Below, in pieces: positions 55,430 through 61,947 of a stretch of 64,000 nucleotides of DNA; within the stretch, counting starts at the first letter, position 1, and each line of letters starts with the position of its first letter. The position numbers were made by a program, and so were the translations under genes. The stretch comes from Synechococcus sp. RCC307 (GTDB lineage: Bacteria > Cyanobacteriota > Cyanobacteriia > PCC-6307 > Cyanobiaceae). The stretch is taken from NCBI GenBank assembly GCA_000063525.1, contig CT978603.1:677105-741104 (forward strand), given 5' to 3'. The notes under the pieces are model-generated. The model had not been told where the DNA came from, made no database searches, and was given only the letters and a program-made list of their open reading frames with translations.

Positions 55430-56550
55430 TGGCACCCCCGCCCCGCATGCTGCTGCTCGGGGCGGGCCTCAGTGGTGGGTTGCTGGCGCTGGCCTTGGCC
55501 GAGCTTGGCGTTGAGGTGGAACTGGCTGGTGGTTCGCTGGCCGATTCGGCAACGGGCTGGAGCTACGGCGGAGTGCCGTGGTGGGCAGGCGCTGCCAATC
55601 CCTTGGGAGAGCTGTTGGCTACAGCGCCTCGCCGCTGGGATCAGCTGCAGCAGCGCCATGGCGAGCTGGGGCTGAGGCCTGCGCAGTTGTGGCTGCATTG
55701 GCCTGAGCAAGCTCCCCCGCAAGCGGTTGCCAAGGTTCAGCAAGCCTTAGCCGGGTTGCCGCAACAACCAGAGCTCACAGCACTCTCAGCCCATGAGGCG
55801 ATTGAGCAGGAACCGCTCCTGGCTGGAGCCGATTTAGGCGGAGTGATGCAACTGCCCTATTGGCGTGTTGATCCCTTGGCTTTTCAGCAGGGTCTTGAGC
55901 GTGCATGGGCTGCGGCAGGAGTGCAGCGCTGCGCTCCACTGCCGGCTGATGAATTGCGGCAGCGGCTTGAGCAAGGGGAGTCGGTGGTGTTGTGCAGCGG
56001 TGCGGCAACGCTGGCTTTGCTGAAGGCCATGGGTTTGCAGACGCCTTCGGCCTTGGACTTCAGCTGGGCTGGGGTTGGCCAGTGCGATGGAGCCCAGCTG
56101 GCGGCTGAGCGCATCGTCATGCCGTTGTTGGGGCAACGCAGCGGGCGTGAAGCCGCTGTTTCTGGTGCGGCTGTGATCTGTGATCCAGGCTTGGCGCCGG
56201 CGCCAGGGGGTGGTCTCTTGGTTGGGCAAACCTCCTGGTTTGATCGCCCCATCGATGATCCACCGCCCGTTGATGAGGATCTCGAGCAGCTCAGCGGGGT
56301 GCAATCACGGCTTGTGCCATCGCTGATTGAGAGCTCCCATGGGCCCTTGCGTTTGCAGCAGCAGCCTGTTGCCTACAGCCGCGATCAACAACCTCTGCTG
56401 GGACCGCTACCTGGCTGCCCCAACCTCTCGTTGTTCACTGGTTTTGGTGGTCCGTTTGCGTTGGTGCCAGCGCTCACTCCGCTGATGGCCCAGGCCTTAG
56501 TGACGAATGATTGGAGTCAGATCAAGGGTTTGGGCTTGCTGTGTAGGTGA
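55429..56550 (+). CDS. FAD-dependent oxidoreductase (DAO/ThiO-like)
   Basis: A 373-residue member of the D-amino acid oxidase family with the dinucleotide motif MLLLGAGLSGGLLALALAELG, ATGWSYGGVPWWAGAANPLG, a glycine-rich C-terminal FAD contact (LFTGFGGPFALVPALTPLMA) and the mid-domain QLPYWRVDPLAFQQGLERA. Glycine oxidase (ThiO) is one candidate, but the substrate is undecided. ATG start, overlapping the PsbP-like gene; 3' overlap of 29 bases with convergent tolC. Confidence 0.8.
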   Translation: MAPPPRMLLLGAGLSGGLLALALAELGVEVELAGGSLADSATGWSYGGVPWWAGAANPLGELLATAPRRWDQLQQRHGELGLRPAQLWLHWPEQAPPQAVAKVQQALAGLPQQPELTALSAHEAIEQEPLLAGADLGGVMQLPYWRVDPLAFQQGLERAWAAAGVQRCAPLPADELRQRLEQGESVVLCSGAATLALLKAMGLQTPSALDFSWAGVGQCDGAQLAAERIVMPLLGQRSGREAAVSGAAVICDPGLAPAPGGGLLVGQTSWFDRPIDDPPPVDEDLEQLSGVQSRLVPSLIESSHGPLRLQQQPVAYSRDQQPLLGPLPGCPNLSLFTGFGGPFALVPALTPLMAQALVTNDWSQIKGLGLLCR

Positions 56551-58309
56551 GCTGGGGTGTGAAGGGCGCGTTGGGGTCCAGGGGCACGGGCAGCAGTTCC
56601 CTCAGCAGCTGCGCGTAGGTGATGTTCACATCCACCGCAGCATCGAGGCGTTGCACCAGGCTGCTGATTAAGCGCTCTTGAGTGATCGATAGATCCAGCT
56701 CACTCGAGAGGCCGGTTTGATAGCGCAGCCGCACATCGCGAAACGCCTCGATGGCGGAGGCAACGCCCCGCCGCGCCGAGGCCAGTTTCGCCAAACTCGC
56801 CTCATGGTTGAAAAAAGCGCTTTCAAGCCTGAGTCGAATGGCGTTGCGCATGGCGGCATAGTCCTGGGCACTAGCGGCTGCCAGCCGATCAAGTGCCCGG
56901 GCTTGCCCGCTGGTGGTGCCGGCATCAAATAGCAGCCACTGCAAGCTGAGCCCTAGGGCCCAGTCGTAACCACTGTTGTTGGACACGGTGTTGATAGCGG
57001 TACCGCAGCAGCCTCCGTTTTTGGGAATCACGTTGTACATCTGCTCATTGATGCCGTAGGTGCCGGCATTGCCGAACAGCGACAGCTTGGGGAGCAGCTG
57101 CGCAGCCACCGCATCACTGCGCTTGGCCAGTGCCTCGCGCGCGGCCAGGATGGCTTCCAGCTCGGGGTTGCCGCGATAGGCCGCCAGCAGGCTGGCCTCT
57201 AGATCAAGCGGCCAATCCGGCATCGGCACGATCGGATCGCTGGCGCTGGGGGTGATCTCCGGGTTGAGGTTGAGCACCACGGCTAACCGTCGCCGGGCAA
57301 TGGCGCGATCAGCCATGGCTTGGATCAGCACTTCCTGGTCGCTAGCTTCAATGGCACGGCGACGCATTACATCCAAGCGGGGCACCAAGCCGGCAATTTG
57401 CATGTCCAAGGTGTCCTGCAAGATCACCAGGTCGTTTTGAACGGCGGCGTCTTGAATCCGCACGTTCTGGTCGGCGCGCTGCAGTCCGTAATAGGCCTCA
57501 CTCACGTCGAGTTGTAGTCGCCGCAGTTGATTGCCGTAGCGATTGCGCTGTTGCTCGAGGTTGGCGCGCGCCGCCTGCACCAGGGGTGTGCGGGCAAAGT
57601 CGATCAAGGCGTAGTCAATCTCTAGGCCCGCTTCACCGAGATTGTCGGTGCCGTTGTAGTAGGCCCCCCCGCCCGCTGGTGTGTAGAAAGGGCCATCGGT
57701 GGGTTGATTCTTGGAATCGAGCAGCCCGTTTTTCGACATCACGGGGATGCCATTGAGAGTGTCATTGCCCGTGGGCACGTTCATGTTGTTGCTGTTCTGC
57801 CCCGTGCTCCCCTCGGCATAGGCACTGATGCGCGGCCAGTAGGTGCCCATGGCGGCCTGCAGTTCAGCGAGGGCTGCCGCAACGCGTTCGCGCTGGGCTT
57901 GCAGCTCAGGGTTGTTGTTGAAGGCAATGGCGAGGGCTTGATCCAAGCTCAGCGATTGGATGGCTCCGGCTTTGAGCTGTTCGGCATCCGGTAGCGCTAG
58001 GGGGATGGGCGCCGCTGTTGCGCTTGGAGCCAAGGTTCCAGTGGGAGCTGCATTGGGCTTCAAGAGCGATTGCGGCAGCGGTGGTGCCGGTGCAAAGCGA
58101 TTGGGAATAGGTTCAGGTTCCGGTGGAATCAGGGCATCGAGGGCCCGTAATTCACGATCCAGCCGCTTCCAGCTGCGCTCGAGCTTGTCAACTTCTGCTG
58201 TGGAATCCAGCTGGGCTAGGGCCGGCAGCGTTGCAGGGGCCGCCAGCGCCAGCGTCAAGGCTGCCCACCGCATCAAGCCAAGAGGGCGCGCGATCAACAA
58301 CCTGGACAA
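56522..58309 (-). CDS. TolC-family outer membrane efflux protein
   Basis: A 595-residue outer membrane factor. The signal peptide (MRWAALTLALAAPATLPALA) is followed by a Pro/Ala-rich linker (about residues 60-100) and two TolC repeats: LDQALAIAFNNNPELQAQRE, GLEIDYALIDFARTPLVQAA, YGLQRADQNVRIQDAAVQND and, in the second half, WALGLSLQWLLFDAGTTSGQ, LRYQTGLSSELDLSITQERL. Divergent from the HlyD-like gene by 62 bases, so one shared control region may serve both. Confidence 0.9.
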   Translation of the reverse strand: MSRLLIARPLGLMRWAALTLALAAPATLPALAQLDSTAEVDKLERSWKRLDRELRALDALIPPEPEPIPNRFAPAPPLPQSLLKPNAAPTGTLAPSATAAPIPLALPDAEQLKAGAIQSLSLDQALAIAFNNNPELQAQRERVAAALAELQAAMGTYWPRISAYAEGSTGQNSNNMNVPTGNDTLNGIPVMSKNGLLDSKNQPTDGPFYTPAGGGAYYNGTDNLGEAGLEIDYALIDFARTPLVQAARANLEQQRNRYGNQLRRLQLDVSEAYYGLQRADQNVRIQDAAVQNDLVILQDTLDMQIAGLVPRLDVMRRRAIEASDQEVLIQAMADRAIARRRLAVVLNLNPEITPSASDPIVPMPDWPLDLEASLLAAYRGNPELEAILAAREALAKRSDAVAAQLLPKLSLFGNAGTYGINEQMYNVIPKNGGCCGTAINTVSNNSGYDWALGLSLQWLLFDAGTTSGQARALDRLAAASAQDYAAMRNAIRLRLESAFFNHEASLAKLASARRGVASAIEAFRDVRLRYQTGLSSELDLSITQERLISSLVQRLDAAVDVNITYAQLLRELLPVPLDPNAPFTPQLTYTASPNP

Positions 58310-58371
58310 AGAGTTCGGCGGCAGTCTGGCTTGATCTGGTTGTCCTTGCCCGGATCTGAGCGTTAAACGCC

Positions 58372-59715
58372 ATGGCGAAGCGTTTCTTCTCCCAACTGCT
58401 CGATCGCTGTGAGGCCAAAGCCGAACAGCTCAAAACCCGCTGGGCCGGCCTGAGTGACCACGGCCAGGTTGGCGTTTGCCTCACCGGCGTCACCGGGGTC
58501 TTGGTGCTATGGGCCCTGTTTTGGCCGGTGCCAACCGAGGTCAAAGGCCAAGGCGTGTTGATCTTTCCCAGCAAGGCGGGATTGCTCAATGCCCGGGCGC
58601 AAGGCCAAGTTCTGGCCGTGAATGTGGAGGTGGGCGATCGGGTCAAGCAAGGCCAAGAGCTGATGTCGCTCTATTTGCCGGTTTTGGAACGGGAATTGGC
58701 GCAGCAGCGGGGCAACTTGCTGCAGCTCGAAGCCATCAACCGCGAGCTCAATGAGCGTGATGCCCGTCGCTTGGAGACTGAAAAGGCCGCCGTGGATGTG
58801 GCCCTCGCCAAATTCGATGACGATCTCGACCGCTACAGCCGCCTGCAAGCGACCTATGGCAACAAGCTGAACAACCTCGAATGGCTCAGTTCACGCCAGG
58901 TGGTAGCCCCGCTGTCCCGTGAGGTGGTTTCAGCTGAGCAGGGTCTGACCAATACCAGCGTCAGCCTTGATGACGTCACGATTCAGCGCAAGCGGGTGTT
59001 GACGGCTTATCAGCAGGTGAAGCTCGACATTGAAACCGAAGCGCTCGAGCGGCAATTCGCCATTGGTGATCTCAAGCGCAAGATCAGCGTCACCGAAGCC
59101 CAGATCGCTTACGACGGCAAGGTCATGGCTGGACGTGATGGCGTCATGATTGATCTTCAGGTGATCCCAGGTCAGACGGTCAAAGTCAGCGACCGCTTGG
59201 GAACCATCTTGGGATCGTCTGAGGCCGGAGAAAGCAAGGCTCCCCAGCTCAATGCCGTGGCCTATTTCAAGCCTGCTGATGCGCGCCGTCTACCGCTGGG
59301 CTTACCCGTGGAGGTGGTTCCTGATTGGCAGCAGCGCGGACGCTTTGGCGGGATCGTTGGCAAGGTCACGAGCGTTCTCACCCTCCCCTCCACCGAAGAC
59401 GATGTGTCCACCACAACGGGTAACCCGCAGCTGGCCAAGGAGCTCACCAAAGATGGGCCGGTGATGCGCGCTGAAATTGGGTTGGTGCGGAGCAAAGGCA
59501 GCATGGATGGCTACCGCTGGACGCTCTCATTGGGCAGTGGTGTGTTCCCAATCCGCGAGGGCTTAACCGCCACCACCCATGCCTATGTGGAGTGGCGCTC
59601 CCCCTTGAGTTATGTGATTCCTGGCCTGCGCTCCCTGACCGGTGGATTCCGCACCTTGCGCATCGATCGCCTCTGGAACCGCCCCTTCTTGGTTCAACCC
59701 GACACGATTGAGTGA
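58372..59715 (+). CDS. HlyD-like membrane fusion protein (NHLP/NHLM type)
   Basis: A 447-residue periplasmic adaptor with one membrane helix (VGVCLTGVTGVLVLWALFW), a barrel-lipoyl half (GQGVLIFPSKAGLLNARAQG, VEVGDRVKQGQELMSLYL), a long coiled hairpin (about residues 105-235, with QQRGNLLQLEAINRELNERD and RYSRLQATYGNKL) and the returning lipoyl part (VMAGRDGVMIDLQVIPGQTV). It resembles the secretion adaptors of NHLP bacteriocin systems, but no peptidase-ABC gene is adjacent. Followed after 4 bases by a small membrane protein. Confidence 0.85.
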   Translation: MAKRFFSQLLDRCEAKAEQLKTRWAGLSDHGQVGVCLTGVTGVLVLWALFWPVPTEVKGQGVLIFPSKAGLLNARAQGQVLAVNVEVGDRVKQGQELMSLYLPVLERELAQQRGNLLQLEAINRELNERDARRLETEKAAVDVALAKFDDDLDRYSRLQATYGNKLNNLEWLSSRQVVAPLSREVVSAEQGLTNTSVSLDDVTIQRKRVLTAYQQVKLDIETEALERQFAIGDLKRKISVTEAQIAYDGKVMAGRDGVMIDLQVIPGQTVKVSDRLGTILGSSEAGESKAPQLNAVAYFKPADARRLPLGLPVEVVPDWQQRGRFGGIVGKVTSVLTLPSTEDDVSTTTGNPQLAKELTKDGPVMRAEIGLVRSKGSMDGYRWTLSLGSGVFPIREGLTATTHAYVEWRSPLSYVIPGLRSLTGGFRTLRIDRLWNRPFLVQPDTIE

Positions 59716-59719
59716 TCCA

Positions 59720-59923
59720 GTGACTCGACTTCCTCGCATTCGCAATCCATTGCTGCGGCGTGAACTGCCCTGGTTGGTAGCTGATGTGGTGTTGTTGCTG
59801 ATTTTGTTCAATGCCAATGCCCCCGAGCTCTGGTTTTGGCTCGTGGTGCTGTTGGTGATCTTGGCTTACCGCTATGAGCGCTGGTGGTCATCGCGGCCCC
59901 AAAACGACGACTCACGTGATTGA
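59720..59923 (+). CDS. 67-residue membrane protein
   Basis: GTG start 4 bases after the HlyD-like gene, so probably co-transcribed. Two close hydrophobic stretches (LVADVVLLLILFNANA; LWFWLVVLLVILAYRYERW) sit between basic termini, suggesting a helical hairpin in the inner membrane. Length and position recall AaeX (DUF1656), the 67-residue partner of the AaeAB pump, but the primary sequence was not matched. Function unknown. Confidence 0.6.
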   Translation: MTRLPRIRNPLLRRELPWLVADVVLLLILFNANAPELWFWLVVLLVILAYRYERWWSSRPQNDDSRD

Positions 59924-59935
59924 GCTTGTGCTGGC

Positions 59936-60994
59936 TTAGCTGCTCTGCCAATCGGCCCATTGCCGTTCTGTTTGCTCAATGGTGCGCTGGATTTGGCGGC
60001 AGCGACTAATGCGACTGGCCATCCGCTCCAGCTGCTGAAAGCTGAGATCGCCGGTGTTGGTTTGCTGCAGATTTTGGTAAAAGCTGTTCCAGCGCTCGGG
60101 CGGTTGGAATGGCACAGCTGGCGCTGGCGGCAGCCTGTTGCTGTGGGTCTCCACTGTCAGTAGGAGGCGCTGCCAGAGGGCAAGCCGTTCGCTAACAGCA
60201 TTCAGCAAGGCTGATTCGGCTTGGTGAATCACACGCAGGCTTTCAAGATCAGGCCTGACCGATGGGTAACGCAGTAGTCCGTTAATGGCGATGATCAGCC
60301 GCGAGGAACAGCTGATCAGATCGCTTATCAGCAGGTAGCGGGGATGCCGCATCGGGTTTTCGCCGAGTTCTTGGGCCACACTCGGCAGCTCTTTGCGCAG
60401 GCTGATCAGTTGGTTGCGCAGTTGTTGATGCATCACCTGAGCGCTGCGGCGATTGACCGCTCCCCCTTCGATTTGGCGCACGCTCTCATGTAGGCCTGCC
60501 TGGATGCCAACCAGCAAGTTGGAGTAGTGCTTAAACACCTCAACGCCACTACGCATCGGCCAAAACAGCTGCAGCGCTAAGACCGTGAGGATGACCCCAA
60601 ACGCCGTCCAGAACAGCCGGATGGTGATCCAAATGGGGATGTCCCCGCCATGGATCAGCCAGCCCATCACGACGATCAGCCCGCCGACTTTGTAGCCCAC
60701 CTTGAGCTTCAGTAAGCCACCCAGCAGCCTTAGGGTCCCCAGGGTGATGGCAATGGCCAAAGCCAGGGGAATGTCTTTGAGCCCCCAAAAGGAGACGTAG
60801 AGCAGGGCTCCACCAAGGATCGTGCCCAGGATGCGTTGGCGTCCAAGCTCCAGTGATGCGCCGTAGGTGCCACCGGCTGTGGCAAAGACCGCAAGCGGCA
60901 CGTAATACCCAAAAGGGATGCCGCTGAGGTAGCTAAAGCCATTGCCTAGCCCCGCCGTGAATGCCATGCGTAGATCGCGGCGGGTGATCAGCAC
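59936..60994 (-). CDS. FUSC-family membrane protein, second half-length subunit
   Basis: A 352-residue protein with about six N-terminal membrane helices in the FUSC/aromatic-acid-exporter pattern (YYVPLAVFATAGGTYGASLE, LGRQRILGTILGGALLYVSF, IALAIAITLGTLRLLGGLL-like region, WITIRLFWTAFGVILTVLAL) and a cytosolic helical tail of about 190 residues. It overlaps the upstream FUSC gene by 7 bases, so both are likely made together. Together (671 residues) they equal one full AaeB-type permease. Confidence 0.8.
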   Translation of the reverse strand: MLITRRDLRMAFTAGLGNGFSYLSGIPFGYYVPLAVFATAGGTYGASLELGRQRILGTILGGALLYVSFWGLKDIPLALAIAITLGTLRLLGGLLKLKVGYKVGGLIVVMGWLIHGGDIPIWITIRLFWTAFGVILTVLALQLFWPMRSGVEVFKHYSNLLVGIQAGLHESVRQIEGGAVNRRSAQVMHQQLRNQLISLRKELPSVAQELGENPMRHPRYLLISDLISCSSRLIIAINGLLRYPSVRPDLESLRVIHQAESALLNAVSERLALWQRLLLTVETHSNRLPPAPAVPFQPPERWNSFYQNLQQTNTGDLSFQQLERMASRISRCRQIQRTIEQTERQWADWQSS

Positions 60995-61947
60995 GGCACA
61001 CTCCTGGCCAGGGCCCGAAGGGAGCCATGCAGGGGTTGCTGCTCCTGGGCCAAGGCGAGCATTGCGAACAGCGGCAGCTGCTCACGCTGCGTGGTGGTGT
61101 GCCATTGCTTCAGGCTGGCTGGCGCTTGTGATCCGAGCACGCCACTGCGGAGCTCATTGGCCATGGCCTCCACGCTGCTTTCAACCAGTTCGGCTCGCCG
61201 CAGCACAGCTTCTGGCAGCTCGGCCATCATCTGCTCCCAGGCCAGCCAGTGGAAGTAGCCCTGCTGCCACAACAGCAGGCGCCGATTCCAGCCCCGTCTC
61301 TTGAGCTGGCTGCGGCGAGAGCTGCGTTGTTCTTGACTCACCAGCGACTCGATGCGCTGCAGCCTGATGGACAGTGGAGCCGGTGGCAGTGGCACCGGAC
61401 GGGGCCCCTTGTGGGTTAGCCAATCGCGGTAGCGCTGCAATTGATCGCCAATGGCTCGTCGTAAGTAGGCATCGGATTGGTTGAGCTCTTCATAGACACC
61501 ACGCGGCCAAAACAACAGGCCAACCAGCAGGGCAATGATGCAGCCAATGATCGTGTCGAGGCCGCGATTGAAGACGTACTCCCAGTTGAGTGCCGTGTAG
61601 TCGGGAATCATCAAAAACATCACGCTCAGCAGACCAGCGGTGTTCAATCCACCGGACCAACCCAGCACCCGCAGCACCGGGATCATCACCAGCAGCGACA
61701 CCAACACCCCGACCCAGCCTTGAACGATGGTGTGAACGATGAAAGTGATCAGCCCGCCCATGGCGGTGCCAAGAATCCGATTGCTGGCGGCTTTGGCTGT
61801 TTGGTCATCGTTGTCATCCACCACCACCACCACAGCGACGAGCGGATACCAAACAAATTCAATGCGCTCAGTCCACAGCGCGACCCCAGCGGTGATGAAG
61901 GCTGCCGTGAACAGCTTCAGGCTGTTGCGCACCAGCTCGCTCTTCAC
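60988..61947 (-). CDS. FUSC-family membrane protein, first half-length subunit
   Basis: A 319-residue protein with the FUSC start SLKLFTAAFITAGVALWTER, then EFVWYPLVAVVVVVDDNDDQ and TAKAASNRILGTAMGGLITF, about six helices in total (GVLVSLLVMIPVLRVLGW; GLDTIIGCIIALLVGLLFWP) and a basic helical cytosolic tail (residues 165-319). It is a homologue of the following gene by layout, suggesting duplication or splitting of a two-domain permease. ATG start. Confidence 0.82.
   Translation of the reverse strand: MKSELVRNSLKLFTAAFITAGVALWTERIEFVWYPLVAVVVVVDDNDDQTAKAASNRILGTAMGGLITFIVHTIVQGWVGVLVSLLVMIPVLRVLGWSGGLNTAGLLSVMFLMIPDYTALNWEYVFNRGLDTIIGCIIALLVGLLFWPRGVYEELNQSDAYLRRAIGDQLQRYRDWLTHKGPRPVPLPPAPLSIRLQRIESLVSQEQRSSRRSQLKRRGWNRRLLLWQQGYFHWLAWEQMMAELPEAVLRRAELVESSVEAMANELRSGVLGSQAPASLKQWHTTTQREQLPLFAMLALAQEQQPLHGSLRALARSVPC

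Follow-up and report, generated by a model that had tools for sequence, protein, structure and literature searches.

The question raised by this locus is whether five neighbouring genes of Synechococcus sp. RCC307 encode one exporter and, if so, of what kind. In the window (the whole 64,000-nucleotide stretch of DNA analyzed), a TolC gene (positions 56522-58309, minus strand, 595 aa) is divergent from the gene for an HlyD-type adaptor (58372-59715, plus strand, 447 aa). The adaptor stop codon is followed after four bases by the GTG start of a 67-aa open reading frame, here called SM67 (59720-59923, plus strand), which is conserved behind the adaptor and encodes a small two-helix membrane protein. 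Convergent with SM67 and 12 bases from it lies FUSC2 (59936-60994, minus strand, 352 aa), the second of two half-length FUSC permease subunits; the first, FUSC1 (60988-61947, minus strand, 319 aa), overlaps FUSC2 by seven bases. The original prediction had given the five reading frames, their positions, the 4-base gap and the 7-base overlap correctly to the base. The locus is flanked mostly by housekeeping genes: recR, lipA, psbP and a gene for an FAD oxidoreductase lie to one side, and the opposite side includes an ABC transporter among other genes (part of the flanking genes were named from the sequence by eye). The gene neighbours of the cassette were inspected for a hint of its substrate and offered nothing informative.

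The five genes very probably encode a single efflux pump that would span both membranes, with FUSC1 and FUSC2 as its permease. TolC matches OEP at 159.8 bits in two stretches (cut-off 22), and the adaptor, which has one N-terminal membrane segment at about residues 31-54, matches HlyD_3 at 24 bits (cut-off 22.2). Both permease halves belong to the FUSC superfamily (PF13515/PF04632), each carrying an FUSC_2 domain above the curated cut-off of 25.6 bits (43.2 bits in FUSC1 and 40.2 bits in FUSC2); FUSC1 also matches ArAE_1 above its cut-off, at 27.8 bits.

The inheritance of the genes was examined in 200 Cyanobiaceae genomes. Orthologues of the adaptor were present in 84 and those of FUSC1, FUSC2 and TolC in 83 each, in nearly identical sets of genomes; TolC occurs in the same genomes as the adaptor, and the co-occurrence of adaptor and FUSC1 is highly significant (Fisher p 8e-53). 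FUSC1 and FUSC2 orthologues were found without the adaptor in only one of 83 genomes (G066), in which they adjoin the end of a contig, and no genome in the sample held an orthologue of just FUSC1 or just FUSC2. The original prediction would have been refuted had the FUSC halves mostly occurred in relatives without the adaptor and TolC, which is not the case. The genes for adaptor, permease and TolC are both linked and co-inherited, as expected of a tripartite pump, and the loci described next bear on the co-occurrence of all five genes that the original prediction proposed to check.

All five genes stand together in 75 of 81 loci; of the remaining six, four are interrupted or divided where a contig or the fetched sequence ends, and two have TolC about 30 kb away. 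The order conserved in Cyanobiaceae is adaptor then SM67, tail-to-tail with FUSC1 and FUSC2 on the opposite strand, and so adaptor and FUSC genes are not one transcript in this family. FUSC1 and FUSC2 form a same-order pair in all these loci, as a rule with an overlap or a gap of no more than tens of bases; about 20 genomes carry a second such pair. TolC is divergent from the adaptor in RCC307, whereas in most relatives it comes after FUSC2 and is read in the same direction; in three loci (L128, L132 and L144) these two genes overlap by 4 bp. The cassette TolC is an outer-membrane channel dedicated to the cassette.

The original prediction held that the two half-length proteins form one permease, and this is supported by counterparts in which the permease is a single chain. 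No fused FUSC was found in Cyanobiaceae loci, but Microcystis, Chroococcus and other cyanobacteria have a fused FUSC of 720-780 aa, accompanied by a relative of SM67 in 13 of 13 loci and by a recognised adaptor in 12 of them. The order is adaptor, small protein, FUSC in nearly all, and the half-length pair therefore takes the place of one permease. The RefSeq annotation of a Leptolyngbya BL0902 plasmid likewise gives TolC in one direction and adaptor, a 58-aa protein and FUSC in the other. A third Cyanobiaceae cassette consists of adaptor, small protein and a compact FUSC of 390 aa. Fission of a fused ancestor, with FUSC1 as its N-terminal and FUSC2 as its C-terminal half, was considered as the origin of the split permease. 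This is unsupported: the profiles of FUSC1 and FUSC2 each match both halves of fused FUSC proteins, and both resemble the N-terminal half most.

Searches for solved relatives in the PDB by FUSC sequence profiles gave only marginal matches, such as plant ALMT, and FUSC2 has weak direct similarity to AaeB (hhalign probability 2.4%). Structure models of the two halves (mean pLDDT 80 for FUSC1 and 84 for FUSC2) were compared with the PDB by fold. The best PDB matches of FUSC2, which has about six membrane helices and a helical cytoplasmic domain, were plant ALMT1 and ALMT9 (E 3e-5, probability 1.00), and that of FUSC1 was AtALMT1 (E 7e-3, probability 1.00). Like these malate channels, each half combines a membrane part and a helical domain in one half-length subunit, at 12-16% identity and modest TM-scores of 0.32-0.57. 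ALMT is a homodimer of six-helix subunits and, unlike the cassette, has no adaptor or outer-membrane channel; the ALMT-like fold predicted for each FUSC half is compatible with a FUSC1-FUSC2 heterodimer.

The same likeness could be read differently. Half-length FUSC-like proteins can function as homodimers, as plant ALMT does, and neither FUSC1 nor FUSC2 is clearly the N- or C-terminal half of a fused protein, so they might be two separate homodimeric transporters, of which only one or neither works with the adaptor. This is unlikely, given that the two are always paired, are paired again where second pairs occur, and are in no genome of the sample found one without the other. A different doubt was voiced with the original prediction, namely that the adaptor may instead work with a peptide exporter encoded elsewhere. 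The adaptor scores 174.3 bits against NCBIfam TIGR03794 (cut-off 156.2), and so the FUSC-linked gene falls under the name ‘NHLP bacteriocin secretion protein’; it could then be part of an NHLP or C39-peptidase ABC exporter, the convergent and separately transcribed FUSC pair being a mere neighbour. However, adaptors of FUSC operons likewise exceed this cut-off, and the scores separate into classes: ABC-linked NHLP adaptors reach 230-496 bits and lie beside NHLM_ABC1, whereas FUSC-linked adaptors reach 160-224 bits and do not. RCC307 has no NHLM_ABC1 match above cut-off (best 431 bits against 853), and this best match, its single C39-type ABC exporter (451898-453850), adjoins an HlyD gene of its own. 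For RCC307 the literature records one group I bacteriocin cluster (PMC3140520). Of the further genomes with a FUSC-linked adaptor that were searched, G375 alone has an NHLP ABC exporter scoring above cut-off, 4.3 Mb from the FUSC-linked adaptor and beside an adaptor of its own; the consistent pairing of an ABC-peptidase gene with this adaptor that would have refuted the original prediction was not seen in these genomes. As ABC-linked adaptors score higher and adjoin their exporter, and RCC307 has none above cut-off, the doubt is answered, and a peptide-exporter role for the adaptor is extremely unlikely. The cassette thus shares with NHLP bacteriocin export (TIGR03794, TIGR03796, NHLM ABC2) an adaptor above the TIGR03794 cut-off, and differs in the lower score class of that adaptor and in having a small protein and an FUSC permease instead of an ABC exporter.

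The original prediction had also likened the 67-residue protein to AaeX (DUF1656), in which case SM67 would be a distant AaeX/FusD homologue and the cassette a plain relative of AaeXAB. Similar size (AaeX and FusD are also 67 aa) and a similar place in the gene set speak for this. Against it, no SM67 protein scanned, close or distant, matched DUF1656 in Pfam at E up to 10, while AaeX, the positive control, matched at 3e-20; profile comparison of SM67 with AaeX gave a probability of 1.1% over seven columns (hhalign); and aaeX stands before aaeA, whereas SM67 stands behind the adaptor. Relatives of SM67 vary between about 48 and 70 aa, and because the exact length is not conserved, the 67-residue match with AaeX is a coincidence. 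Homology to DUF1656 is very unlikely. Weak matches of single members to DUF5993, YwiC, MauE, DUF4131, VirB3 and Wzy_C were all below cut-off and inconsistent between members, and were rejected.

SM67 lies directly behind the adaptor on the same strand in 77 of 77 loci where both genes are single-copy, and its relatives in this position in the fetched loci are 62-90% identical over the aligned part; this conservation indicates a real gene. The protein has the motif E-x-P-W ... N-A-N-x-P-E-L-W-F-W ... R, and judged by sequence it appears to be a separate, highly conserved two-helix family without a name, matching no described family. SM67 paralogues lie behind adaptor paralogues. One of these, a close paralogue with about 50% identity to the adaptor, is accompanied by a small protein and a TolC of its own, but none of the genes up to about 9 kb away encodes a permease, so an adaptor of this clade need not go with FUSC; a tree of the adaptors gives weak support (78/45) to a group that unites every FUSC-linked one. 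SM67-type proteins were found beside adaptors of the FUSC type and beside this close paralogue, and were absent from the ABC-linked loci examined. It can be proposed tentatively, with slightly more doubt than confidence, that they are a new adaptor-associated subunit class independent of AaeX/FusD, required by this HlyD clade to couple fused, compact or split FUSC permeases and, in the second cassette, perhaps a permease elsewhere. On this view a fourth part would be the rule in FUSC pumps, with unrelated small subunits recruited twice.

In the preferred model of a single pump, the paralogous FUSC1 and FUSC2, with about six membrane helices each, would together form the inner-membrane permease, probably as a heterodimer. 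The adaptor, anchored in the inner membrane, would join it to the dedicated TolC channel, and the strict linkage of SM67 suggests that its helical hairpin sits in the inner membrane as a fourth subunit with adaptor and permease. Judged by its family, which includes the homologues AaeB and FuaA, it may be a secondary transporter exporting small organic, probably aromatic, acids.

E. coli AaeXAB (FUSC/ArAE, aromatic carboxylic acid efflux) also encodes an HlyD-type adaptor, an FUSC permease and a small membrane protein together. It differs in that AaeB is one 655-aa chain, against 319 and 352 aa here; its DUF1656 small protein, encoded before the adaptor, is unrelated in sequence to SM67; its adaptor is of another HlyD subfamily; and its outer-membrane partner is presumed to be of the TolC type, whereas the cassette encodes its own. 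The Bucl8-FusCDE pump of Burkholderia, described as tetrapartite and linked to fusaric acid resistance, likewise combines outer-membrane channel, FUSC permease, adaptor and a 67-aa small protein, FusD (likened by description), whose function its authors give as not known; unlike the cassette, it has a one-chain FusC of 733 aa and a collagen-like extension on Bucl8 (PMC7682875). Stenotrophomonas FuaABC and B. cepacia FusABCDE are tripartite FUSC pumps, and no small two-helix protein was seen in their description. B. cepacia FusB (142 aa), FusC (346 aa) and FusD (208 aa) are reported to match parts of the 656-aa FuaA (PMC3517613), a precedent for dividing a permease among several chains. These three proteins correspond to consecutive segments of FuaA; FUSC1 and FUSC2, by contrast, are two paralogues of one and the same half.

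The open-licence literature searched yielded no account of a FUSC pump in cyanobacteria. Tripartite FUSC pumps are already known; what is new is a variant with a probable two-protein permease and a small protein outside the described families. FUSC pumps are poorly understood, and the split, fused and compact cyanobacterial permeases provide naturally occurring variants with which to test the construction of the permease, as the different small subunit does for the role of that component. By analogy, the cassette points to export of small molecules, perhaps acids, by picocyanobacteria. The annotation ‘NHLP bacteriocin system secretion protein’ is carried by some cyanobacterial adaptors that are components of FUSC efflux pumps, a misnaming that matters for bacteriocin genome mining. 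RCC307 has a second TolC elsewhere (G000:C1:304120-305778), 30% identical to that of the cassette. In G050 and G181, decayed copies of the cassette have several genes damaged at once, which speaks for a single pump.

The window covers positions 677105-741104 of its host genome, which is complete (Cyanobiaceae; 2,224,914 bp). The five open reading frames of the original prediction were recovered at exactly their predicted places, and Pfam and NCBIfam assigned a TolC, an HlyD-type adaptor and a FUSC_2 domain in both half-length proteins (FUSC1 and FUSC2); no other protein of this genome matched FUSC_2. The adaptor also passed the NCBIfam cut-off for the 'NHLP' adaptor model TIGR03794. The 67-aa protein (SM67) matched no Pfam or NCBIfam family above cut-off.

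Each protein was used as a query against the same 200 Cyanobiaceae genomes and the presence sets were compared. The co-occurrence check proposed originally bore the cassette out: orthologues of the adaptor were present in 84 genomes, and of FUSC1, FUSC2 and TolC in 83 each (Fisher p = 8e-53, which gauges strictness rather than independent events, as the genomes are related). FUSC halves were not mostly without the adaptor; this occurred in a single genome, G066, where the FUSC genes run to the contig end. The other exceptions were G030 and G071, in which the sole FUSC pair is diverged and sited at the locus, and G187, from which TolC is absent.

Eighty loci were fetched; counting the window as well, the complete five-gene set was found in 75 of the 81. 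Where a locus had a single adaptor and a single small protein (77 loci), the small gene always lay behind the adaptor on the same strand, its stop 167-260 bp past the adaptor stop, and in nearly all loci this pair was faced by the FUSC1-FUSC2 pair. TolC either diverged from the adaptor, as in the window, or followed FUSC2 on the strand of the FUSC pair, with a 4-bp TolC/FUSC2 overlap in three loci. About 20 genomes carry a second FUSC pair beside TolC; in L119, L122, L206, L209 and other loci two pairs flank TolC, and the inner one is strongly diverged (24-36% identity). Two cassettes are decayed: in L176 (G050) the adaptor contains stop codons and the TolC and FUSC genes are broken, and in L268 (G181) only adjoining adaptor and FUSC1 fragments are left. 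Such joint damage is as expected of a unit decaying together.

The FUSC1 and FUSC2 profiles are related (hhalign E 7e-14), and each also matches the two halves of fused FUSC proteins. Both were modelled (mean pLDDT 80 and 84) with some six membrane helices each and a cytoplasmic domain that is helical too, and the closest PDB matches of both are plant ALMT subunits, with modest TM-scores. ALMT channels are homodimers, and by analogy a FUSC1-FUSC2 heterodimer would be the natural reading of the paired halves.

It had also been proposed that the adaptor might instead serve a peptide exporter encoded elsewhere, and its TIGR03794 score (174 bits; cut-off 156) fits that reading. However, adaptors beside fused FUSC genes pass as well (205-224 bits), and FUSC-linked adaptors as a whole score 160-224 bits. 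When positions were compared across cyanobacteria, adaptors at 230-496 bits adjoined an NHLM peptidase-ABC gene wherever checked, excepting G260, which had no ABC search, and G361, where the adaptor and the listed above-cut-off ABC lie at different places. The consistent pairing with an ABC-peptidase that a peptide exporter implies was not seen: genomes with FUSC-linked adaptors had no NHLM ABC above cut-off save G375, whose ABC lies 4.3 Mb off and adjoins its own adaptor. The RCC307 genome encodes a single C39-ABC (451898-453850) that has an HlyD gene of its own, in agreement with PMC3140520, which lists just one group I cluster in this strain. The small protein was absent from six ABC-linked loci in plasmid records, and in the adaptor tree the FUSC-linked adaptors lie to the same side of a weakly supported branch (78/45). 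At its equivalog cut-off TIGR03794 over-calls the adaptors of FUSC pumps, which receive the name of NHLP bacteriocin secretion protein, including in RefSeq (Leptolyngbya BL0902 plasmid locus, L285).

Of the 200 Cyanobiaceae genomes, some 30 have a paralogue of the adaptor (~50% identity); in L179-L196 (e.g. L184:7352-10645) it is accompanied by a two-helix small protein of its own. The two genes stand tail-to-tail with a second TolC, mutS2 and hemB adjoin in L184, and no permease gene occurs within ~9 kb of this cassette in L179-L196.

SM67 has the conserved core E-x-P-W...LL...N-A-N-x-P-E-L-W-F-W...R, and a polar, proline-bearing turn flanked by two hydrophobic stretches. The suggestion that it is AaeX/DUF1656-like did not hold: the Pfam search recovered the AaeX control at 3e-20 and matched none of the SM67 proteins, and profile comparison with AaeX gave only 1.1% probability. 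Judged by sequence, SM67 is a separate family in a place analogous to that of the AaeX/DUF1656 protein.

Outside Cyanobiaceae, the small-protein profile matched in eight genomes. In all six whose DNA was inspected, the small protein precedes a fused FUSC gene (719-809 codons), and the adaptor stands ahead of it wherever recognised. A second, independent scan with the fused FUSC as its starting point yielded 13 loci, from Microcystis, Chroococcus, Lyngbya, Stenomitos, Scytolyngbya, Rhizonema and an uncultured cyanobacterium. Every one has the small protein, and 12 have a recognised adaptor; the adaptor profile gave no match in the other, L272. RefSeq annotates the BL0902 plasmid as TolC (reverse), then 'NHLP bacteriocin system secretion protein', a 58-aa hypothetical protein and a FUSC family protein (all forward), which is the window layout with a fused permease instead. 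A third Cyanobiaceae cassette (L254-L259, L263, L265) has TolC in reverse orientation, divergent from the adaptor, behind which come the small protein and a compact, ~390-aa FUSC. The gene set therefore accommodates three permease builds: fused, compact and split. The compact FUSC seems to comprise both membrane halves but to lack long cytoplasmic domains. In L282, from an uncultured cyanobacterium, the small-protein gene (2074-2352) is inverted upstream of adaptor, FUSC and TolC, which share one direction, and the FUSC and TolC frames overlap. L260, L261 and L262 hold another split FUSC pair (~270-290 and 360-390 aa), with neither adaptor nor TolC in the 19-kb stretch fetched.

Gene identities, linkage, order, a fused counterpart and the absence of an ABC partner are established. 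In the proposed mechanism a FUSC1-FUSC2 heterodimer would act as a secondary transporter, the adaptor would bridge it to TolC, and the small hairpin protein may be a fourth subunit. FUSC pumps, tripartite and four-part, are already known, and a three-piece permease was described earlier for B. cepacia (PMC3517613). Judged against the literature searched, the new features are a permease made of two paralogous genes, a small subunit of a different kind and the NHLP over-call of FUSC adaptors. Genes neighbouring the cassette gave no clue to cargo; by analogy with AaeAB, FuaABC and Bucl8-FusCDE it might be small organic or aromatic acids. On the BL0902 plasmid a linear amide C-N hydrolase gene (L285:8997-10151) lies behind the fused FUSC, a single occurrence and a possible hint of cargo.
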